A stretch of DNA of 27,213 bases, taken from IMG/VR virus record IMGVR_UViG_3300040801_002061, positions 1-27,213 of that record, one strand, 5' to 3'. Below are positions 6,445-23,869 of this stretch, one piece after another. The translations under genes and the position numbers were made by a program. The stretch comes from a virus. The notes under the pieces were generated by a model that saw only the letters and a program-made list of their open reading frames with translations, made no database searches and was not told the DNA's origin. Within the stretch, counting starts at the first letter, position 1. Every line of letters starts with the position of its first letter.

Positions 6445-6750
6445 TTAATCAAAAGTATTAATTATTTTGATCCCGTTTTTCTTCAACTCTTTAATAGCCG
6501 TTGTATAATTGTCTTTGTCTATATTATATATGATAGGAGAATTACCAACGGGATATCCTTTTGTTGAGAAAACAATCTTTTTCTTTCTAAGAATCTTTTC
6601 TGCTTTCTTATAATCTTCTCTTGAAACTGAAAAACTTTTATCCGGTTTAAATGATGGGGTTCTATCAGTTACAATATCACCAGTGTCTTTAATAAACTTA
6701 GAAAGATGAGGAGGAAGAGCCTCAGTAATAAAATCTTTGAATTTTTTCAT
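6445..6750 (-). CDS. Putative capsid-targeted internal protein, 101 aa
   Basis: The first residues, MKKFKDFITEA, match the capsid-targeting sequence of T4 internal proteins (MKTYQEFIAE type) nearly position by position, including I8-x-E10, the pattern cleaved by the gp21-type prohead protease. Removal would leave a basic ~91-residue protein of two similar small alpha/beta units (YKKAEKILRKKKIVFST and YTTAIKELKKNGIKIINTF). The mature family is not recognised. If the signal works, the protein is packed in the head and injected with DNA. The ribosome binding site is weak, and a hairpin lies just upstream. Confidence 0.65.
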   Translation of the reverse strand: MKKFKDFITEALPPHLSKFIKDTGDIVTDRTPSFKPDKSFSVSREDYKKAEKILRKKKIVFSTKGYPVGNSPIIYNIDKDNYTTAIKELKKNGIKIINTFD

Positions 6751-7753: not shown

Positions 7754-8611
7754 TCACCAATCTACATTCTTCGGAACATATTCCTTGATCTTGGCTCTGA
7801 TTTCTTTATCTAATTCTTTTGTACTTTTAATAGTCTGACCTGCTTTTTTGACATAAAAGTAATTAGATGTTTTGATATATTGTCCGCCCTTTCCAGATTT
7901 CACAAGTTCCGAATCAATACCAATTTTATTGAAAGCAAATACAATATCCCCATCAAGATATTTTTTAAGATCATTGCCCATATTTATAATGTCATTCATT
8001 GTTTGAGAAACACCACGATGAGTGTTGACCAAAATTTCAGTGGGAACTGTTCTACTTCTCGAAAGATTCTGACTCTTAGCAACCTCTATATCATTAATGA
8101 TCCAAACTATATGAATTTTATCTTTTTCATAACCTAACTTTTCAAGATCTCTTGAAATACTTGCTAGTTTTGTTAGATCCCGAAGAGTAACGTCAAAAAT
8201 AATATTAGGCTTTCGATCTGGTGCTGAAACAAGTACTGATTGATAAAATGTAGATTTTTGTTTTTTATCTAATTTCAATACAGACCCGATAAGATCATGA
8301 AGAAGTGCGACATTATCAGGGTTCTTCAATGAATCTGTTTTTCTTAGTTCAGCAAAATCCATTCCGGTTTCATCTTTCACAATCTTTTCTATTTTATCGG
8401 AACGTATTGCTAGGCTTTTAAGTTCATCAACATCAAAACTCATTCCCTCTAAGCCGACTAGGTTTTTCTTCACAAATCCTTTCCCGCTTCCGGCACCACC
8501 GGCAAGAATGACAACATTGCCGAATTTCGGATAGGCTTTCCCTCCGAAAGTGATCAACTTTTCATTTAGTTCTTCTAGAACCTCATTAATGTATTCTTTG
8601 TACGATTTCAT
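7754..8611 (-). CDS. P-loop kinase with capsid-targeting N-terminus
   Basis: A 285-residue protein. Residues 1-10 (MKSYKEYINE) match the T4-type capsid-targeting sequence with I8-x-E10. A P-loop nucleotide kinase domain follows: Walker A GGAGSGKG (38-45) after a beta strand (NVVILA), then SFDVDELKSLA, FDVTLRD and VWIINDIEVAKSQNLSRSR, the layout of zeta-toxin or polynucleotide-kinase-like enzymes. The C-terminal ~50 residues are basic. It would phosphorylate a small molecule or nucleic acid end; the substrate is not evident. If packaged, the enzyme would act immediately after injection. AAAGGTGAC precedes the ATG. An inverted repeat with an extended -10 lies 40-60 bases upstream. Confidence 0.75.
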   Translation of the reverse strand: MKSYKEYINEVLEELNEKLITFGGKAYPKFGNVVILAGGAGSGKGFVKKNLVGLEGMSFDVDELKSLAIRSDKIEKIVKDETGMDFAELRKTDSLKNPDNVALLHDLIGSVLKLDKKQKSTFYQSVLVSAPDRKPNIIFDVTLRDLTKLASISRDLEKLGYEKDKIHIVWIINDIEVAKSQNLSRSRTVPTEILVNTHRGVSQTMNDIINMGNDLKKYLDGDIVFAFNKIGIDSELVKSGKGGQYIKTSNYFYVKKAGQTIKSTKELDKEIRAKIKEYVPKNVDW

Positions 8612-10036: not shown

Positions 10037-10990
10037 TTATTTAATAAATTTACTTAAATTGTGTTCTTTCTTTACTTTTCTCCAATTCTTGCCTAAAACA
10101 AATTCAACCTCTTTTTCTAACAAAGATCCTTTTTTGATTCTTTCCCAAAAATCAGTTTTAATTTTTGCTGATTTGTATGAAGATTCAAAAAAATGTTGGA
10201 TAAAATAAGATTGCTCAAATATTTGATCTATACTTGGCAATAAGTTACCGAACAAATGTGTTTTACCATCAAATTTTGTCGGAGCATCAAGAGAATAACA
10301 ATTACCAGCCGCTTTCCAAGCAGGTATTGGACAACATTGAATGGGTTTCATTACTTGAACATTATCATTAGAGTTAGCAATATTCTTCATCTCCCACATT
10401 ATATAATTCCATCCTTTGGATGATTTCTTCGGTGATTCTGATAGTGATTGCTGAATTTTTGTACAAAGATCATTAATATCATTCTTTATACTTGAATGAA
10501 CTTTGAAAGGAAATACTGATAATGCTCTTCCATCCCATGTTCCGTCAGTTTTGAAGAAAGGATGTTTTGGTCCGAATTTGATCTGCATCACACCAGTTCG
10601 TTTAGTAATAGATGTTGAACAAAAAGCCTCTATATTTGGTAAGGGATTTATTGAAACAGCATCCATATCTAAAACAACACCTTCTTTCTCATTAGCAAGT
10701 CTAAACCGAACTAAATCTGATATATGAGCAACGGAGTGTCCTTTCCTCATTGATTCATGTGCATCTTTAGACGGAAAAAATTCATCAGCATTTAAAACTT
10801 TAATCTCATTTGGTATAACTATTTTATCAGAAAATCTCTGATAAGTCAAGAGAAAAATGTTTTTATATAATTTTATATGAGAATTTAAAGCCAATTCATG
10901 AAGATATGATAAATCAATAGTTTTTTCAAGCCATTGTTCATAAGATTCATCGGCTTGAACTTGACTACTCCAGAATAGAATTATATTCAT
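10037..10990 (-). CDS. Glycosyltransferase with DxD motif
   Basis: A 317-residue enzyme of the capsular-polysaccharide / GT32-like group. SVAHISDLVRFRLANEKEG (86-104) leads to the metal-binding LDMDA (107-111, D108/D110). The N-terminus (MNIILFWSSQ) is the first Rossmann-type strand. It transfers a sugar from a nucleotide-sugar donor; the acceptor is unknown. Its ATG overlaps the stop of the TAGT-type glycosyltransferase gene (ATGA), so the two are translated together and may build one disaccharide on DNA or on a virion protein. Confidence 0.8.
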   Translation of the reverse strand: MNIILFWSSQVQADESYEQWLEKTIDLSYLHELALNSHIKLYKNIFLLTYQRFSDKIVIPNEIKVLNADEFFPSKDAHESMRKGHSVAHISDLVRFRLANEKEGVVLDMDAVSINPLPNIEAFCSTSITKRTGVMQIKFGPKHPFFKTDGTWDGRALSVFPFKVHSSIKNDINDLCTKIQQSLSESPKKSSKGWNYIMWEMKNIANSNDNVQVMKPIQCCPIPAWKAAGNCYSLDAPTKFDGKTHLFGNLLPSIDQIFEQSYFIQHFFESSYKSAKIKTDFWERIKKGSLLEKEVEFVLGKNWRKVKKEHNLSKFIK

Positions 10991-11958
10991 TTCTTTCCTT
11001 TGTTTTGAAAATACTCTTCATCTTTCTTTTTGAAGTAAGCATTTAACTCATCAAAGTCTTTGAATGTTTTATAAACCATTCCGTAATTGTTTATAAGTTG
11101 TTTAACTTTAAAATCTTTTTTTAGTTTCAGTTTATTCTTTTTAAACGGTTCATAATCAACATAATGATGCCACCTATCATATTTCCAAACAACTCTTGCC
11201 ACATCTGGATGCATTGCAACAAGCATTGCAGATTTTTTAATAGTTCCTTCTGGATTGTACTTCATTTTTCTCCATTCTTCTTCAGATAAAGAACCTTCTT
11301 TATGATAAAATTCATCAGTGTTGCCTCCTTTTAAAGCCTGTGTAGCAACTTTACCTTGAAGAAATACATTAAATTGAACGGTACAATCACCATCTTTTAG
11401 AACATTTAAACATAAATCTGTATCTTCATTATATCTTCCTCTCCAGCGATGTCTACATGAATTATCAATCAAAAGACAAGAATAAATTCTGGTATTCTTA
11501 ACATAAGCAGGTCTCGCGTCTGCTTCGGGAAGAAATCCTCTATACTGGGGACCAGCAATAAGAACATTTTCATACCGATCAACAAAATCTTCCATTACTC
11601 TAAAACAAACACCAGTTTCAACTCTAATTCTCTCATTCTTATGTACTCTATAGAAATCAAGAAGATTGTCATCCATAACCCAATGTCTTTTATGACCGTG
11701 TTCTATTGAATGTTCCCAACACCAGTTTCTGGCTCTTCCCGGACCATCACCGTGATTGGAAAAAGGAAGAATTAAGAGTGAAGCAAACTCTTTTAAGTCG
11801 AACTTTTCAAGCGCTTCTATGTAATTTTCTTCATCTTGAGGTTCTATAGCGATGAAATGAGGAACATGCATTCTTCTAAGGGTTTTAGACGTTATCATTG
11901 ATTCATGCCGACCTTTAGAAATGATATAAACCGGATATCTTGGATTAGTGCATTTCAT
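10987..11958 (-). CDS. TET-associated-type glycosyltransferase (TAGT-like)
   Basis: A 323-residue GT-A enzyme. The start is taken at ATG 11956-11958 (MKCTNPRYPVYI): GAGG is nine bases upstream and the stop of the previous gene adjoins. YPVYIISKGR, the LPFSNHGDGPGRARNWCW region, HWVMDDN (about 93-98) and RYNEDTDLCLNVL match, from memory, the phage TET-associated glycosyltransferase family, which glycosylates hydroxymethylated bases in phages with TET/JBP-like dioxygenases. No such dioxygenase lies in this window, so it must lie elsewhere or the acceptor differs. It stands in the same operon as a second glycosyltransferase, a nucleotidyltransferase and an HD hydrolase. Confidence 0.78.
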   Translation of the reverse strand: MKCTNPRYPVYIISKGRHESMITSKTLRRMHVPHFIAIEPQDEENYIEALEKFDLKEFASLLILPFSNHGDGPGRARNWCWEHSIEHGHKRHWVMDDNLLDFYRVHKNERIRVETGVCFRVMEDFVDRYENVLIAGPQYRGFLPEADARPAYVKNTRIYSCLLIDNSCRHRWRGRYNEDTDLCLNVLKDGDCTVQFNVFLQGKVATQALKGGNTDEFYHKEGSLSEEEWRKMKYNPEGTIKKSAMLVAMHPDVARVVWKYDRWHHYVDYEPFKKNKLKLKKDFKVKQLINNYGMVYKTFKDFDELNAYFKKKDEEYFQNKGKK

Positions 11959-11959
11959 A

Positions 11960-12283
11960 TTAATCTTCCTCAACCCACCGTCTCAAAGACTTGACATCTT
12001 TTTTTAGTTTCGGATACCAGATGCTTTTTGATTTAGTAGTTAGTTTCTGATCAACCATTTTAGCAAATTCTTGGAGATCTTCATCATTTCTAAATCTTAC
12101 AATTATTTTAGCAAAATCCTCTTTAGTGGGTTGATCAAATTCTGGCATATCAACCCAATGTGTTTCCCAGTTGTCATTTTCTGCCATTTTTTCTTCATGA
12201 GACTTATCTCTAAAAGCCGCAAGTGACGGCTTCTTTTTCCCGGCTAAATCCAAACAATTGTCATATTCGGTTTTTTCTTTCAT
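11960..12283 (-). CDS. Hypothetical protein next to TAGT-like gene
   Basis: A 107-residue protein. The C-terminal two thirds (WETHWVDMPEF, IIVRFRNDEDLQEFAKMV, SKSIWYPKL) form one compact alpha/beta unit that I recall seeing in phages beside base-modification genes, but I cannot name a family. A short basic N-terminus precedes it. AGGAG precedes the ATG by eight bases. The stop is followed two bases later by the TAGT-like start, so the two are coupled. A helper role for DNA modification is inferred from position only. Confidence 0.6.
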   Translation of the reverse strand: MKEKTEYDNCLDLAGKKKPSLAAFRDKSHEEKMAENDNWETHWVDMPEFDQPTKEDFAKIIVRFRNDEDLQEFAKMVDQKLTTKSKSIWYPKLKKDVKSLRRWVEED

Positions 12284-16549: not shown

Positions 16550-16608
16550 TCAATCTTTATTTTATGGTTCATTATAACATATTAGGATATAATGTCAACA
16601 CTTTTTTT
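16550..16608 (-). repeat. 59-bp dispersed promoter repeat, copy 2
   Basis: Second copy of the element at 140-198, with two mismatches in 59. Here its upstream part overlaps the last codons and stop of the small membrane-protein gene ending at 16582. Confidence 0.9.
16571..16598 (-). promoter_or_regulatory. Sigma70-type promoter in the repeat
   Basis: TTGACA (16593-16598), 16 bases, TATAAT (16571-16576), with an extended -10 TG and an A-tract before the -35. It drives the 322-residue gene starting at 16508. The -35 lies within the coding end of the gene that stops at 16582. Confidence 0.82.
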
Positions 16609-16830: not shown

Positions 16831-18291
16831 CTAGAAATTTATTTTAAATTCATTATTTTTAGGATTTGCTCCAGGTTTAACTTGTTCTAAAAATCTATCA
16901 CCTGTACTTTTATCAAATAACGGTTTATCTTCATCATTCTTTTTATCTTTCTCCTTTACTTTATGCGGTTCTAGATAATTAGAAAAGTTTTCAACATCTT
17001 CGGCTTCACCGAATATCATTTTTTCTCTTTGATATGTCATCATGAACCGTTTCTTTCCGGGTACATTGATGTTGTCATATCTAGATTTTAATTGTTTACA
17101 TAACATCAATCCTTGCTCCGCTATTTCTTCCGGAGCCATCATACCCATCATAAAATCTACTGTATCATTGATACCTTTAGATTCACCCGTATCTTGCATA
17201 CCAATATCAGAGGATTCAATTGTTCCTCTGTTACCTTGAACAGCAGAAGCACCGATAAAATTATATTTACCTGCTAAACCTCTAAACTCTTCAGCAATTG
17301 ATTTTACAAAAAGATAAGTTCCTTTATTAAGGGAAACCCTTCTTGACAAGCAAATGTTCAAGTAATCCAAACACACTATATCAGGAACAAACCCTTTCTT
17401 CATCTTCAATTCGCGAAGTAAGGCCTCAACATGTCCCATATGGGCAGAAGATGTTGGATATTCCTTGATTATAATCTTACCAAGACCCTTCTTTTTTAGT
17501 CTGGTAATTTTATCGGCAAATTGGATGACCTCAAGTTTTTCAAGATCATCCATTGTAGTATCAAGAAGATTTGCATCAATTCTCTGAGCAATCTTTTCCT
17601 CAGCCATTTCCATTGATATGTACAGAACATTATAACCTTGAGTCGCCATCTCTGCGGCATAATGACAAAGGAATGCTGATTTTCCTACTCCAGTAGAAGC
17701 CAGAATAAGATTTATTGTTTTTCTTTCCCAACCTCCTTTTGTTATCTTATTAAGAATTCCTGTAAGAAACGGAAGTTTGTCCTCTTTTCTTTTCAGTCTT
17801 TCAAATCTTTCTACGGCGTCTTCTACATAATCAGTACCAATATGATCATCAAAAGAAACGGCTAATGCTTCTTGAATCAAGTCAGGAATACTGCTTATTG
17901 GTTCATCAGATCCTCCTTTATCATAAATATTGACCGATTTGACAAGTGCATTATATAAAGCCTTCTGTGAACAAAAATCTTCTGTACAATCTAGAATCCA
18001 TTCATATTGAACATCTTTCTTGGATTGAATATTTGTTCTTACATAATCAAATGCTTCCTTCTCTAATTCTTCAGACAAAGAAGCATCTTTTATGTAAACA
18101 TTTAAAATCTCGGAATTAGAAGGTTTTTCATAAACTGTATAATGCTTTTCATATGCTTTGTAAATAACCTTTTCGACTCCTTCAAAGAAATCCTCTTGAA
18201 GATGAGGAAATACTTTGAAGAAGTATTGGTCATTATTAGAAAGTTGATTAAATATAAGTGAAGCATCAAAATTTTTAACAACTTTGGACAT
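16831..18291 (-). CDS. 41: Replicative DNA helicase, T4 gp41-like
   Basis: A 486-residue hexameric helicase of the DnaB/gp41 family that unwinds the fork 5' to 3' and works with the gp61-type primase. The N-terminal ~150 residues are the helical DnaB-N-like domain. The RecA-like motor starts near residue 170 with GGWERKTINLILAST and Walker A ASTGVGKSA (198-206). Walker B is DIVCLDYLNI (about 303-312), and a DnaB-type SAVQGNRG loop follows. T4 gp41 is about 475 residues. AAAGGAG precedes the ATG. It follows the gp40-like and uvsX genes, which is the T4 order. Confidence 0.92.
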   Translation of the reverse strand: MSKVVKNFDASLIFNQLSNNDQYFFKVFPHLQEDFFEGVEKVIYKAYEKHYTVYEKPSNSEILNVYIKDASLSEELEKEAFDYVRTNIQSKKDVQYEWILDCTEDFCSQKALYNALVKSVNIYDKGGSDEPISSIPDLIQEALAVSFDDHIGTDYVEDAVERFERLKRKEDKLPFLTGILNKITKGGWERKTINLILASTGVGKSAFLCHYAAEMATQGYNVLYISMEMAEEKIAQRIDANLLDTTMDDLEKLEVIQFADKITRLKKKGLGKIIIKEYPTSSAHMGHVEALLRELKMKKGFVPDIVCLDYLNICLSRRVSLNKGTYLFVKSIAEEFRGLAGKYNFIGASAVQGNRGTIESSDIGMQDTGESKGINDTVDFMMGMMAPEEIAEQGLMLCKQLKSRYDNINVPGKKRFMMTYQREKMIFGEAEDVENFSNYLEPHKVKEKDKKNDEDKPLFDKSTGDRFLEQVKPGANPKNNEFKINF

Positions 18292-18600
18292 TTACTCTCC
18301 TTTTGGATCTAATGATGCTGGTACTTTTATCTTCATATCTTCTTTTAATGCAGTATCAAGTTTATTAGTAAAATCATCTTGTATGATTGTAGAAATTAAA
18401 CCGTTACATGCTTTGTGAAAAACTTCCGGATTAATAAAATCCCATGATGCTTCAAGTTTTTTTTCATCATCTTCTTTGATAAGAATTTTATATTTTATAC
18501 CATCAAATACACCACCTTTGATTTCAAAAATTAAAGATTCCTTTTCGGCAACACTTACGTCTATTTTATCTAAAAGAACAATATTTGGTAAATTACTCAT
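18292..18600 (-). CDS. gp40-position protein, 102 aa
   Basis: The start is placed at ATG 18598-18600 (MSNLPNIVLLDKI), inside the last codons of uvsX, with AGGGAG upstream. Longer readings would overlap uvsX by almost 100 bases. The protein is a small alpha/beta unit (SLIFEIKGGVFDGIKYKILI...DMKIKVPASLD). T4 has gene 40 (about 114 residues, a head vertex/assembly factor) in exactly this place between uvsX and 41. The assignment is from position and size, not from a recognised motif. Confidence 0.6.
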   Translation of the reverse strand: MSNLPNIVLLDKIDVSVAEKESLIFEIKGGVFDGIKYKILIKEDDEKKLEASWDFINPEVFHKACNGLISTIIQDDFTNKLDTALKEDMKIKVPASLDPKGE

Positions 18601-19681
18601 CTTCTGATATCTCCCTTTCTTCTGTTTCTTCAACATCTGGCACTGGAAATGCGGAGCCGTATTTGAATTTTTTGCCAACGTATTCATCAATTGCTTTCAT
18701 TATATCTTCAGTAAAGAATTTCTCAGGATTTTCATAGATGTTTTTAGAATAAACCTTTGCACCATCTTGTTCTGGTCCTAATTCAATTCTTGTTCCCGCT
18801 TTCTTCCATATTCCTGCTTCAATAGCGAATTCAACCATTCCATGCCAGCGGGAAAGACCGTCTTGATATCTGATTACAGTTTCAGCCTTTGAATTTTCTC
18901 TGGTAAGTCTTCCCTTATCTAATCTACATTTGACAACGGCACCGGTGATATCTGTTCCGCTTTTCTCTTTCGATTTAGTCAACATCATTACAGTACTTGC
19001 TGAATAAACGGGTCCTGAACCACCTGATTGGACTTGTTTAGAAAACATTTCCATAGTACCGTATGTATGATTAGTAAACAGCAATGGAACTTTGAACTTA
19101 CCCATTTTGAGAGTCAAAACTCTAAAAGCCGCTTTGACTAATTGGGCTCGAGTCATATCTCTGGTATCTTTTCCGTCTTGAATGTCTTCTATTTCTTTTA
19201 CAGTTGACAGTTGGCCGAGAGAATCAAGAACCATTAGAATGGGTGTTCTTTCTTGCGCTGGAATTGCAGAATAGTTATTAAGGATAACAAGAGCCTGATG
19301 TCTGAATTGCTGAACTGTTTCAATTGGCATAATAAGAACTCTTTTAATATCAATTCCGAATTCTAACATCATATTTTTAGTCAAAGCGGATTCTGACTCA
19401 AACATAAACACAACAGCCCTCGGATCTTTATCAAGAAACAATTTAACAGCGGTAAGAGCAAAGAAACTCTTACCAACACCAGAAGGTCCAGCCAATGCAG
19501 TTATTTTGTTGTTGGCATAACCACCATAGATTGATCCACTTAGTAAAGCATTGATAGCATAAGAACCAGAATCAATAAATCCTTCATAGTCTCCTGCAAC
19601 AATACCGTTTTCTACAATTGAAGCATACTCATTAAGTTTAAAAATTTCTTTTGCAAAATCAAATGAATTGTTTTTACTCAT
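18593..19681 (-). CDS. uvsX: UvsX RecA-like recombinase
   Basis: A 362-residue recombinase that coats single-stranded DNA and catalyses strand exchange in recombination-dependent replication. Walker A GPSGVGKS (65-72), Walker B ILMVLDSLG (about 147-155) and the KVPLLFTNHTYGTMEMF region with QVQSGGSGPVYSAST (about 200-230) are as in T4 UvsX (about 391 residues). The C-terminus is acidic (VEETEEREISEDE), as usual in this family. AAAGGAG precedes the ATG. It is served by its own promoter at 19797-19825. Confidence 0.93.
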   Translation of the reverse strand: MSKNNSFDFAKEIFKLNEYASIVENGIVAGDYEGFIDSGSYAINALLSGSIYGGYANNKITALAGPSGVGKSFFALTAVKLFLDKDPRAVVFMFESESALTKNMMLEFGIDIKRVLIMPIETVQQFRHQALVILNNYSAIPAQERTPILMVLDSLGQLSTVKEIEDIQDGKDTRDMTRAQLVKAAFRVLTLKMGKFKVPLLFTNHTYGTMEMFSKQVQSGGSGPVYSASTVMMLTKSKEKSGTDITGAVVKCRLDKGRLTRENSKAETVIRYQDGLSRWHGMVEFAIEAGIWKKAGTRIELGPEQDGAKVYSKNIYENPEKFFTEDIMKAIDEYVGKKFKYGSAFPVPDVEETEEREISEDE

Positions 19682-19776: not shown

Positions 19777-19820
19777 AAATCCCTTTGATAATATACAGTA
19801 TATACTATTCAAAGGGATTT
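19777..19820 (-). terminator. Strong terminator after the PEP-CTERM gene
   Basis: On the minus strand AAATCCCTTTGA and TCAAAGGGATTT form a perfect 12-bp stem (arms 19809-19820 and 19777-19788) directly followed by TTTTTGTTTT. It lies about 22 bases after the stop of the PEP-CTERM gene. This is the best Rho-independent terminator in the window. Confidence 0.85.
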
Positions 19821-19825
19821 GTCAA
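19797..19825 (-). promoter_or_regulatory. uvsX promoter overlapping the terminator
   Basis: TTGACA (19820-19825), 17 bases, TATACT (19797-19802). The -35 sits at the foot of the terminator stem and the -10 in its loop. A transcript starting here would begin inside the loop and carry only the descending arm, so it would not form the hairpin. The rest of the 160-base gap to uvsX is AT-rich leader with no other feature seen. Confidence 0.75.
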
Positions 19826-19842: not shown

Positions 19843-20562
19843 TTATTTTTTTCTTTTTCTTAAAAAACTGCTTATTCCTACTAGTCCAGAACCAAAAAGC
19901 AAAATAGATGTTGGTTCTGGCACAGGGGTTGCATTAACCGTTGAAAAGTTGTCTAGACCGAAACCGTCATTAGTGTTTGATACATTCCAGATTATTTCTG
20001 AAATATATTCATCACCAAAATCTATGCCAACAAAAAAACCGGTACCATTCAGTTGATTAGGATCTATGAAAGCAAACAATCCACCACTAGCAATTGATGT
20101 TAATGCTCCTACATCACCAGGATCAGTTATATAGAAAAAGAGATTAGTAAATGTATTCGGTTTTACATTCAAAGTAATCTGAGTTATATCAGCAGAATCG
20201 AGATAATTAGTTTTTACTCCGTTTTCAGTTATATCCCTTCTTCCATTAGCATCAAAATCTCTTAGTTGAAATTTCGGTTCATTAGAATCTTTATATGCTG
20301 TTGATCCAGTTCCGGGAGATGCTCCAGCATTGGTAAATGTTCCCACATTGGTTTCTAGACTTGACGACCATCCCGGCGTCAGTGATTCAAAATCTTCTAC
20401 AAGAGAAGCGGAATTTCCTATGTTAAAAACCCAATTATTAATTTGAGCACCTTGAGTACTGAGATTGAAAACATCAATACTTGCGGCATTAGTAACTGAA
20501 GAAACAGTTACTAAAAAAAATAATACTAATAAAGCACCTAATGTACTGATAAAATTTTTCAT
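19843..20562 (-). CDS. Secreted PEP-CTERM sorted protein
   Basis: A 239-residue exported protein. Residues 1-27 are a Sec signal peptide (MKNF..., hydrophobic core LGALLVLFFLVTV, cleavage near TNA|AS). The C-terminus is a full PEP-CTERM tail: VPEP (214-217), a hydrophobic helix (SILLFGSGLVGISSFL) and a basic end (RKRKK). Exosortase (EpsH-type) in the host recognises such tails and sends the protein to the surface or exopolysaccharide. The body has a beta-sandwich look (LVEDFESLTPGWSSS, NVKPNTFTNLFFYITDPGD, FFVGIDFGDEYISEIIW), similar to many host PEP-CTERM proteins. GAGGAG precedes the ATG. It is bounded by a terminator and is probably acquired from a host. Confidence 0.88.
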   Translation of the reverse strand: MKNFISTLGALLVLFFLVTVSSVTNAASIDVFNLSTQGAQINNWVFNIGNSASLVEDFESLTPGWSSSLETNVGTFTNAGASPGTGSTAYKDSNEPKFQLRDFDANGRRDITENGVKTNYLDSADITQITLNVKPNTFTNLFFYITDPGDVGALTSIASGGLFAFIDPNQLNGTGFFVGIDFGDEYISEIIWNVSNTNDGFGLDNFSTVNATPVPEPTSILLFGSGLVGISSFLRKRKK

Positions 20563-20581
20563 ACATAACTCCTCATGTATT

Positions 20582-20827
20582 TTAAATTTTTTTACCTGGC
20601 GCTACCACAGATTTGTAATCGGTGAATTTGAATAAATCATCAATTGAACCAACCGATTTTTTGACTTCTTCATGACTAACAACTTCATTATCGGTTTCTG
20701 AGTAATACGCCTTTTGTTTTTTCTTTAAAATAGACCAAGCCTTTTTGTTCAAAGACTTGTCTTTGATATCATCAATATTAATTGTCTTCATCTTTGCTTC
20801 GGTCATCAATTCTTTAAATGTCTTCAT
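20582..20827 (-). CDS. Putative capsid-targeted internal protein, 81 aa
   Basis: It begins MKTFKELMTEA, matching the T4 capsid-targeting pattern (MKTYQEFIAE type), with Glu10 at the expected protease site and Met in place of Ile8. The remaining ~70 residues are small, basic and of no known family (KAWSILKKKQKAYYSETDNE). AAGGG precedes the ATG. It follows three similar genes in the cluster 20582-22088. Confidence 0.62.
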   Translation of the reverse strand: MKTFKELMTEAKMKTINIDDIKDKSLNKKAWSILKKKQKAYYSETDNEVVSHEEVKKSVGSIDDLFKFTDYKSVVAPGKKI

Positions 20828-21370
20828 TTATTTACCCTTAAAATAAAGTTTCTTTCCGCCGATTTCGATGTATTGTCCTTTTTCATCAAATTCAACTTCC
20901 ATTGCTATAATAGCGGCTTCGGGAGAAGCAACAAGATCTTTCTTGATTTGCTTATCACCTAGTGTCTTAATAACAGAAGAAATAAATTTCTTATCATTTA
21001 CGGTGTAATTACCTTTTCTTGCTGTTGATACTTCTGCTTTAAGGTCATATGAGACTTTGTTTCCATCGAACTTGACATTATGTGGAGTAATGACCATTTC
21101 ATCATAATCATCGAATGATTCATTAACATTTTTGTCCATTGTATGAATATTATCTTTACCACTTTTATGCTTAATTCTTATATTGGGTGTGGCTCCGTCT
21201 TTGTGAAAATAAACAGATTCATAACCTCCCTTTGAATTTTTTTCGATAGTTTTCAATCGATAACCATCTTTCAGGAGTTCGCCATGTTCTTTTCTAAATT
21301 TGGGATCACGCTTTATATTTATATTTTTATTTTCATTAAGGTCTTCGGAAAATTTCTTAAAAGTTTTCAT
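20828..21370 (-). CDS. Putative capsid-targeted internal protein, 180 aa
   Basis: It begins MKTFKKFSEDLNENK, with the same aromatic/basic spacing as the neighbouring capsid-targeting N-termini. A protease site LNE (11-13) is possible. The body is basic and beta-rich (YESVYFHKDGATPNIRIKHK; VKFDGNKVSYDLKAEVSTARKG). The second half (residues about 90-180) may be a separate domain. No family recognised. AAAGGA precedes the ATG. Confidence 0.6.
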   Translation of the reverse strand: MKTFKKFSEDLNENKNINIKRDPKFRKEHGELLKDGYRLKTIEKNSKGGYESVYFHKDGATPNIRIKHKSGKDNIHTMDKNVNESFDDYDEMVITPHNVKFDGNKVSYDLKAEVSTARKGNYTVNDKKFISSVIKTLGDKQIKKDLVASPEAAIIAMEVEFDEKGQYIEIGGKKLYFKGK

Positions 21371-21396
21371 TAAATATCCTTTATATTAATAATGGG

Positions 21397-21792
21397 TTAA
21401 ACTGTAGTTTTCATCCATGCTTTGGCTTCACTTTTAGAATCAAAGAATGTAATAACATTTATCGGACCAGTTGAGACAATAAAAGCACCGACTTTTTTGG
21501 GTTTATTTTTTCCTCCCCACACTGAAAGATCATCATAAACATCATACATCGGCAAATCAAACATCAATGCATTGCCTTTCTTTTGGACAGGTTTTATTGT
21601 CTTGATTGCTTTGAGAATCATTCGGAGTACAAGTTGATCCTCATTCGGATCTCCTTTCTTATCTGTCAGATATGTTTTAGTCAATGGAATAGATGTTCCT
21701 GATCCCACATCATAAGCAATCCAAAGACTACCTTTTGTTTTATAAATCTTATACTCCATTGCCTCATTAACAAAATCTTTATACTTTTTCAT
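21397..21792 (-). CDS. Putative capsid-targeted internal protein, 131 aa
   Basis: It begins MKKYKDFVNEA, a good fit to the capsid-targeting pattern, with V8-x-E10 at the cleavage position. The body is a compact alpha/beta protein (YKIYKTKGSLWIAYDVGSG, GAFIVSTGPINVITFFDSK, AKAWMKTTV) and is not assigned to a family. AAAGGA precedes the ATG. The start adjoins the stop of the next gene upstream (TAATG). Confidence 0.63.
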   Translation of the reverse strand: MKKYKDFVNEAMEYKIYKTKGSLWIAYDVGSGTSIPLTKTYLTDKKGDPNEDQLVLRMILKAIKTIKPVQKKGNALMFDLPMYDVYDDLSVWGGKNKPKKVGAFIVSTGPINVITFFDSKSEAKAWMKTTV

Positions 21793-22088
21793 TAATTATC
21801 CTTTACTTTATTTTTAATTATGCTTAATGAAGGCAATCCTTTAAATTTTAATATTCGATTAGCCTTGCTTAGTATTTCAAAATTTGAATCTCCTATAATT
21901 TCATTCAAACCTTGCTGGCTTACAATCTTATCAAATTGTTTATTTAATTTAGCAAATTGATCCAGCAAATTCTTATAAGTCTTATATTCATACACAGAAA
22001 CATTTTCATCATTTAAAACTTTTTCGATTGTTGATTTTTTGCCCTCATTTACACAAATATCTTCTGTTAATTTCTTGAATGACTTCAC
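21792..22088 (-). CDS. Putative capsid-targeted internal protein, 98 aa
   Basis: It begins with GTG (22086-22088) giving MKSFKKLTEDICVNEG, the shared N-terminal pattern, with a possible LTE (7-9) protease site. The rest is helical and basic (IEKVLNDENVSVYEYKTYKN, LRILKFKGLPSL). The GTG overlaps the stop of the nucleotidylyltransferase gene (TAGTG), and AAAGGA lies upstream. Unknown function. Confidence 0.58.
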   Translation of the reverse strand: MKSFKKLTEDICVNEGKKSTIEKVLNDENVSVYEYKTYKNLLDQFAKLNKQFDKIVSQQGLNEIIGDSNFEILSKANRILKFKGLPSLSIIKNKVKDN

Positions 22089-22657
22089 TAGAGATTTTCC
22101 TTTATTTCTTCAAATATTATTCTTGCTGTTTGATCATCAGCAACAGATGGCAACCATTGTCTGAATTTATCAAAATTGTCATTCAGTGCAAAGTTCCGCA
22201 TATCTGTTCCGGACTCTTCAGATTTTCTTTCACCTGCATTCTTTATATTTATATTATAGAATAAATAAGTTCCTTTGTCAACAAGTGTTTTCACTTTCTC
22301 TTTAAACTCTTCATAACGGTCATCGCCAACAATCATAGTAACATTTTTATAACCACGGTCTGACAAATTCTTCAGAACATCAAAGGGTGTTTTAATATTA
22401 ATTTCTCTAGGAATAACAGCCTCTGGAAACAACTTCCTTAGTATTGTTATCTTGAAATCATAAGACAAAGGATTCTTTTTTCTATCTTGCCGCTGTGAAG
22501 TATATATCAAAGGAATAGAATCAGTTTCTTTTGCTTCTCTGATCACTGTATTAATGAGTTTTTCATGACCAGTGGTCAATCCCTGGAATCTACCGAAAGT
22601 AAAAACTATACTCTTTTTTGATCTTTCTCTTTTGAGATATTCTTTAAACGAAAGCAT
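22088..22657 (-). CDS. Nucleotidylyltransferase (NMNAT/cytidylyltransferase-like)
   Basis: A 189-residue enzyme of the HxGH nucleotidylyltransferase superfamily. VFTFGRFQGLTTGHEKLI has the T-x-G-H form at 28-31, and SGTDMRNFAL (about 146-155) is the second signature (ISSTxxR type). VTMIVGDDRYEEF lies between. It would join NMP to a phosphorylated substrate, as in NMN or nicotinate mononucleotide adenylylation or cytidylyl transfer; the sequence does not fix which. The first residues (MLSFKEYLKRERS) are a weaker version of the capsid-targeting pattern. Proteins of this type with a capsid-targeting start are common in T4-like phages from memory. The ribosome binding site is weak (GGTG). Confidence 0.8.
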   Translation of the reverse strand: MLSFKEYLKRERSKKSIVFTFGRFQGLTTGHEKLINTVIREAKETDSIPLIYTSQRQDRKKNPLSYDFKITILRKLFPEAVIPREINIKTPFDVLKNLSDRGYKNVTMIVGDDRYEEFKEKVKTLVDKGTYLFYNINIKNAGERKSEESGTDMRNFALNDNFDKFRQWLPSVADDQTARIIFEEIKENL

Positions 22658-23807: not shown

Positions 23808-23869
23808 ATCTCCTTAGAAAAAGTTTTAATTAATTTTTATAATATATAATACACCATTTCTAAGGAGAT
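23808..23869. repeat. 13-bp inverted repeat over RBS and promoter spacer
   Basis: ATCTCCTTAGAAA (23808-23820) and TTTCTAAGGAGAT (23857-23869) are perfect inverted copies 36 bases apart. One arm is the ribosome binding site of the ligase-fold gene. The other occupies the spacer between the -35 and -10 of its promoter. A transcript from this promoter would contain only the first arm. Confidence 0.8.

Follow-up and report, generated by a model that had tools for sequence, protein, structure and literature searches.

The occurrence of a gene for a PEP-CTERM protein beside the recombinase gene uvsX of a phage raises the question of whether a phage can encode a genuine exosortase substrate and, if so, what such a protein would do in the infected cell. 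The phage fragment analyzed here (the window) comprises the whole of a 27,213-base IMG/VR record. Its phage is T4-like by virtue of UvsX, a gp41-type helicase and a gp61-type primase, with a UvsX that reaches at most 54% identity to Kyanoviridae-type phages (e.g., Methylophilales phage Melnitz and Pelagibacter phage HTVC008M) and 36% identity to that of T4.

The gene (Table 1) starts with ATG, and its product opens with an apparent signal peptide, recognized by inspection as an MK n-region, a hydrophobic core and a TNA-A site (MKNFISTLGALLVLFFLVTVSSVTNA, followed by AS). When the protein was modeled with AF2 without an alignment (pLDDT 34), residues 2–24 formed a helix and the rest was of very low confidence. 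The C-terminus (PVPEPTSILLFGSGLVGISSFLRKRKK) scored 25.7 bits against PF07589 (cut-off 20.7) and 24.9 bits against TIGR02595 (cut-off 16), and the match stops at residue 238 of 239, the very end of the protein. This was the single PEP-CTERM match in a six-frame search of the whole window (E = 2.4e−8), and a degenerate DNA pattern for the tail occurred once in the window (19883–19923) and in none of 100 shuffles. The body is Asn-rich (Asn content of the protein 11.2%), and no other Pfam, NCBIfam or PHROG family was found over cut-off. The full sorting signal claimed by the first-pass annotation (signal peptide, VPEP, hydrophobic helix, RKRKK) was thus upheld, its tail by the curated Pfam and NCBIfam cut-offs and its signal peptide by inspection, and with these signals the gene very probably encodes a genuine exosortase-type substrate of a phage. 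Its GC3 of 0.179 lies at the low, AT-rich phage end of the range in the window, so that it does not look like a recent acquisition. An assembly join at this gene is unlikely, given the shared strand, the 19-bp gap to the upstream gene, its own Shine-Dalgarno sequence and the phage-like GC3.

Table 1. Positions of the PEP-CTERM gene, its signals and its neighbors in the window
Feature	Position	Strand	Basis
PEP-CTERM protein gene, 239 aa	19843..20562	−	ORF, PF07589/TIGR02595 tail, six-frame search
Shine-Dalgarno sequence GAGGAG of the PEP-CTERM gene, six bases 5' of ATG	20569..20574	−	
Predicted Sec signal peptide codons (residues 1–26, MKNFISTLGALLVLFFLVTVSSVTNA)	20485..20562	−	Sequence inspection
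PEP-CTERM sorting tail codons (PVPEP, hydrophobic helix, RKRKK)	19846..19926	−	PF07589, TIGR02595
uvsX recombinase, downstream neighbor of the PEP-CTERM gene	18593..19681	−	UvsX similarity
gp41-type replicative helicase	16831..18291	−	
Terminator-like hairpin between the PEP-CTERM gene and uvsX: perfect 12-bp stem, then TTTTTGTTTT	19777..19820	−	
Sigma70-type promoter TTGACA-17-TATACT, 11/12, overlapping the hairpin, aimed at uvsX	19797..19825	−	
Sigma70-type promoter TTGACA-17-TATAAT, 12/12, nearest strong one upstream of the PEP-CTERM gene	22253..22281	−	
Gene directly upstream of the PEP-CTERM gene, 19-bp gap, N-terminus MKTFKELMTEA, like the T4 capsid-targeting sequence	20582..20827	−	
Upstream gene, N-terminus MKTFKKFSED	20828..21370	−	
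Upstream gene, N-terminus MKKYKDFVNEA	21397..21792	−	
First full gene past the 22281 promoter, N-terminus MKSFKKLTED	21792..22088	−	

The gene closes a unit that runs from about 22281 to 19843, and it adjoins uvsX. Its place just before uvsX agrees with the first-pass annotation, as does the strong terminator of its own, found as a hairpin of −21 kcal/mol (z = −5.9). The claim that it sits inside a replication block stood only in part, as the gene is next to uvsX but not within the replication cluster proper, ending instead a presumably early accessory unit that borders the uvsX–helicase block. Nine coding-strand promoters of 11–12/12 were counted in the window, where about one was expected. 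The N-termini encoded by the four genes upstream resemble those of the T4 internal proteins IPII/IPIII (MKTYQEFIAEA). Proteins encoded at 20582–22088, 6445–6750 and 7754–8611 start with MK-[TKS]-[FY]-K-[ED]-[FLY]..E-[AV], much like the capsid-targeting N-termini of IPII/IPIII, and are probably a set of internal head proteins that are injected. Among them, the protein encoded at 7754–8611 also matches zeta-toxin-type kinases (PF06414).

Other regulatory elements of the window were observed as well. An early promoter with near-consensus −35/−10 boxes is present in two 59-bp copies (140–198 and 16550–16608; 97% identical, 16.4 kb apart), which may be dispersed early-promoter cassettes. Two promoters are associated with a perfect inverted repeat (23808–23869 and 19777–19820) whose first arm separates the −35 and −10 boxes and whose second arm falls in the leader; at 23808, this second arm includes the Shine-Dalgarno sequence of the next gene. 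The hairpin would form only in read-through transcripts, where it may cause termination (19777) or mask the ribosome-binding site (23808). A TET-associated glycosyltransferase (PF20691) is encoded at 10987–11973, with a homologue on the PEP-CTERM contig L136, and suggests hypermodified bases in the phage of the window.

Close-range searches of phages, IMG/VR and the 85,000 genomes of genome_contigs recovered no relative of the protein. A distant full-length homologue, QIE43764.1 (30% identity over residues 27–239, E = 8e−6), is encoded on a plasmid of Rhodobacteraceae SC52; it ends in VPLPTS, a helix and basic residues, and an exosortase is encoded on the same plasmid. Taken together, this homology, the tail and the plasmid exosortase place the body of the window protein in a secreted, exosortase-linked bacterial family. 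None of 92 contigs from the phage group of the window (relatives by uvsX or gp41, mostly fragments and distant, with UvsX at most 54% identical) gave a PEP-CTERM match, so the gene is a sporadic accessory in that group, which does not in itself make the annotation wrong. PEP-CTERM tails, which the first-pass annotation had proposed to look for in related phages, were thus missing from this group and present in other T4-like phages and in Tunturiibacter phage Tunturi_5.

A scan of IMG/VR with the degenerate tail pattern matched at least 119 contigs; among the matches listed, nearly all fall at the C-terminal end of an ORF, where a sorting signal has to be, and VPEP with exact spacing occurs on unrelated bodies in many viral contigs. 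Only 13 of 50 PEP-CTERM viral contigs had a Terminase_6N match (11 over cut-off), which means that part of this set may be provirus edges or cellular DNA. For this reason, the argument rests on Tunturi_5, G093/G094/G113, G088 and G091, in which phage genes flank the PEP-CTERM genes. A match in Acinetobacter phage HFM1 was rejected, as it lies antisense to a tail-collar gene.

Tunturi_5 (PP885688), an isolated 309-kb jumbo myovirus with an acidobacterial host, encodes two PEP-CTERM proteins over cut-off, both with signal peptides: gp179 and the product of an ORF at 75.1 kb. The gene for gp179 lies between those for an exonuclease and SbcD, in a recombination/replication block near uvsX; it is annotated just as a hypothetical protein, and PEP-CTERM proteins are absent from the published description of the phage. 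A T4-like clade is represented by G093 and G094, one phage recovered from two metagenomes, and by their relative G113 (gp32 72% identical). Here, an orthologous PEP-CTERM gene (59% identical) has a dN/dS of 0.48 between G093 and G113; NIGRISHVGEVSAAPVPEP and the basic end have hardly changed, and the body is conserved too. It lies between genes for a secreted protein and for a phage lipoprotein (PF25682), with gp32 (PF08804) and T4 RNase H (PF09293) encoded downstream, and in both phages an intrinsic terminator comes before it together with an 11/12 promoter (TTTACA-17-TATAAT). In T4-type phages, the shuffling of accessory genes by cassettes that combine a hairpin with an early promoter ('PeSLs') has been described, and the terminator-promoter pairs before the G093/G113 genes and after the gene of the window would fit cassettes of this type. 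In G113, four successive genes with apparent secretion signals, one of them for a likely lipoprotein, stand ahead of the PEP-CTERM gene (L194:3942-6613), and together with it may form an envelope-directed gene island.

Further PEP-CTERM genes were found in G088 (one; 74.7 kb, T4-like by gp41, gp43, gp44 and gp61), G092 (two; 228 kb) and G091 (three), a myovirus with homologues of T4 gp17, gp18 and gp19 in which two of the three are in tandem and overlap a thymidylate synthase gene. At L159:1101-2434, a tandem PEP-CTERM pair with overlapping ends lies beside thymidylate synthase, comparable to T4 imm beside gene 42. As such genes occur in phages unrelated to one another, among them a laboratory-grown one, phages seem to borrow the surface-sorting route of their hosts. 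No exosortase above cut-off was detected in the 50 PEP-CTERM viral records, in Tunturi_5 or in the window, which makes use of the host enzyme, and with it processing of the phage PEP-CTERM proteins by a host exosortase, likely. The host of the window phage would presumably carry an EpsH-type exosortase, as the first-pass annotation had suggested.

The statement of that annotation that such a protein has no standard phage role was too strong as far as position is concerned. In T4, the block is ordered 43 - imm - 42 - bgt - uvsX - 40 - 41 - sp - 61, and the superinfection-exclusion genes imm (adjoining gene 42, annotated as thymidylate synthase) and sp, both envelope-acting, sit within this polymerase-uvsX-41-61 block. 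The presence of an envelope-protein gene in this region is thus nothing foreign to T4-like phages, and the blocking of other phages becomes the more ordinary and better-supported of the ideas put forward. The 12/12 promoter at 22281 and the place before uvsX would suit early expression in a setting like that of imm and sp. A search of the window with T4 Imm and Sp (tblastn, 1e−4) returned no match, and the PEP-CTERM protein is consequently not classed with them.

From what can be read in the sequences (signals, gene setting, recurrence in phages, conservation in one T4-like clade, no phage exosortase), we infer early timing, processing by the host, surface location and an exclusion function along the following lines. 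Host RNA polymerase would transcribe the gene early in infection, and Sec would export the protein; the host exosortase would then recognize VPEP, cut the tail and pass the protein outward, either onto the outer surface or into the EPS layer. There it would modify the envelope of the cell under infection, most likely by hiding or changing a receptor or the EPS so that other phages are kept out. It would thereby render the same service as T4 Imm and Sp by another route. In Aquincola, overexpression of one host PEP-CTERM protein (PepA) lowers soluble EPS, restores flocs and shifts EPS to the bound fraction (PMC9850573), and in Nostoc adhesion to its polysaccharide requires the exosortase CrtB (PMC12188702); by analogy, an early-made phage PEP-CTERM protein could mask receptors or alter the capsule. 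The reading as a whole, i.e., a host-exosortase substrate that changes the envelope early and most likely excludes other phages, is the best explanation at hand and comes close to an even chance of being correct. Superinfection exclusion is our first choice of function because position and likely timing are like those of T4 Imm and Sp, though as a function it is advanced tentatively, at somewhat less than even chances.

Several other explanations have to be weighed against this reading. The protein might serve the phage through the matrix itself, by binding host exopolysaccharide and changing capsule, floc or biofilm so as to aid burst, spread or persistence, with exclusion as a side effect. 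Bacterial PEP-CTERM proteins do hold EPS to the cell (PMC9850573; PMC12188702) and the Asn-rich body (11%) of the window protein would suit this, but a lytic cell has little time for matrix building, and we regard such remodeling for other ends as unlikely and rank it after superinfection exclusion. The gene could also be a captured host gene without phage function (a moron or hitch-hiker) at a shuffling point between early genes, as its sporadic presence in the window's phage group and its accessory-gene position with terminator and promoter would allow. Against this stand the GC3, whose phage-like low value shows no sign of recent acquisition, the orthologue in another T4-like clade, which is under purifying selection with its tail intact, and the two or three PEP-CTERM genes in several phages. 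The conservation of the G093/G113 orthologues, although it concerns the gene of those phages and not that of the window, weakens the idea of a functionless passenger, which we consider distinctly unlikely.

Two further possibilities concern the tail. It could be a mere stop-transfer helix that keeps the protein anchored in the inner membrane on the periplasmic side, in an Imm/Sp-like or lysis-related role and with no exosortase involved. A hydrophobic helix with a basic end serves as a membrane anchor too, and the host exosortase is presumed; VPEP with its exact spacing nevertheless recurs on unrelated bodies in many viral contigs, and VPEP and the stretch before it are almost unchanged in the G093/G113 pair, so that this alternative appears improbable. 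Alternatively, the protein could act as a decoy, made in such abundance that it occupies the host exosortase and strips host PEP-CTERM proteins, possibly including receptors, from the surface. The complete tail, the strong and presumably early promoter and the lack of a phage exosortase would suit such competition, but a folded-looking body of about 190 residues would be superfluous and the body is conserved as well in the G093/G113 T4-like clade, which leaves the decoy very improbable.

We found no report on PEP-CTERM proteins in phages in the literature searched, which was mostly open-access. It is conceivable, without being the more probable case, that PEP-CTERM proteins are common in phages that infect exosortase-bearing bacteria, across several unrelated phage lineages, and that the host exosortase serves these phages as an export path for remaking the surface or matrix of the cell during infection. 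Such proteins would then form a class of phage effectors not described before, used most likely for superinfection exclusion. Phage proteins that change the envelope are well known as lipoproteins, membrane proteins and modifying enzymes; reliance on a host exosortase would, if true, be a new delivery route for phage proteins. To our knowledge, most PEP-CTERM proteins are without a known role, and the phage examples would offer a functional handle on them. Because sludge flocs, soils and biofilms commonly harbor exosortase-bearing bacteria, competition among phages in these habitats could be influenced, and the cultured pair of Tunturi_5, with its two PEP-CTERM genes, and Tunturiibacter psychrotolerans X4BP1 makes the idea directly testable.

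Compared with known systems, the window protein shares with bacterial EpsH/XrtA exosortase substrates (Haft et al. 2006, PMC1569441) the signal peptide, the tail of VPEP, helix and basic end, and an Asn-rich body without domains; it differs from them in that its gene is on a phage, ends a presumably early unit, is not beside EPS genes and has no exosortase on its record. QIE43764.1 is homologous over the full length of the body and has an exosortase on its own plasmid, but it is a cellular plasmid gene product with a VPLP-type tail, in contrast to the VPEP of the phage protein. T4 Imm and Sp are likewise envelope-directed early proteins from the polymerase-uvsX-41-61 block, as the window gene would be by its place before uvsX and its presumed early timing; they lack a C-terminal sorting tail and sequence similarity to the window protein, for which exclusion is a proposed function. 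The proteins of Tunturi_5 differ in their unrelated body, in TPEP instead of VPEP and in the acidobacterial host of the phage, and they share with the window protein the signal peptide and a PEP-CTERM tail over cut-off, with gp179 also encoded near uvsX.
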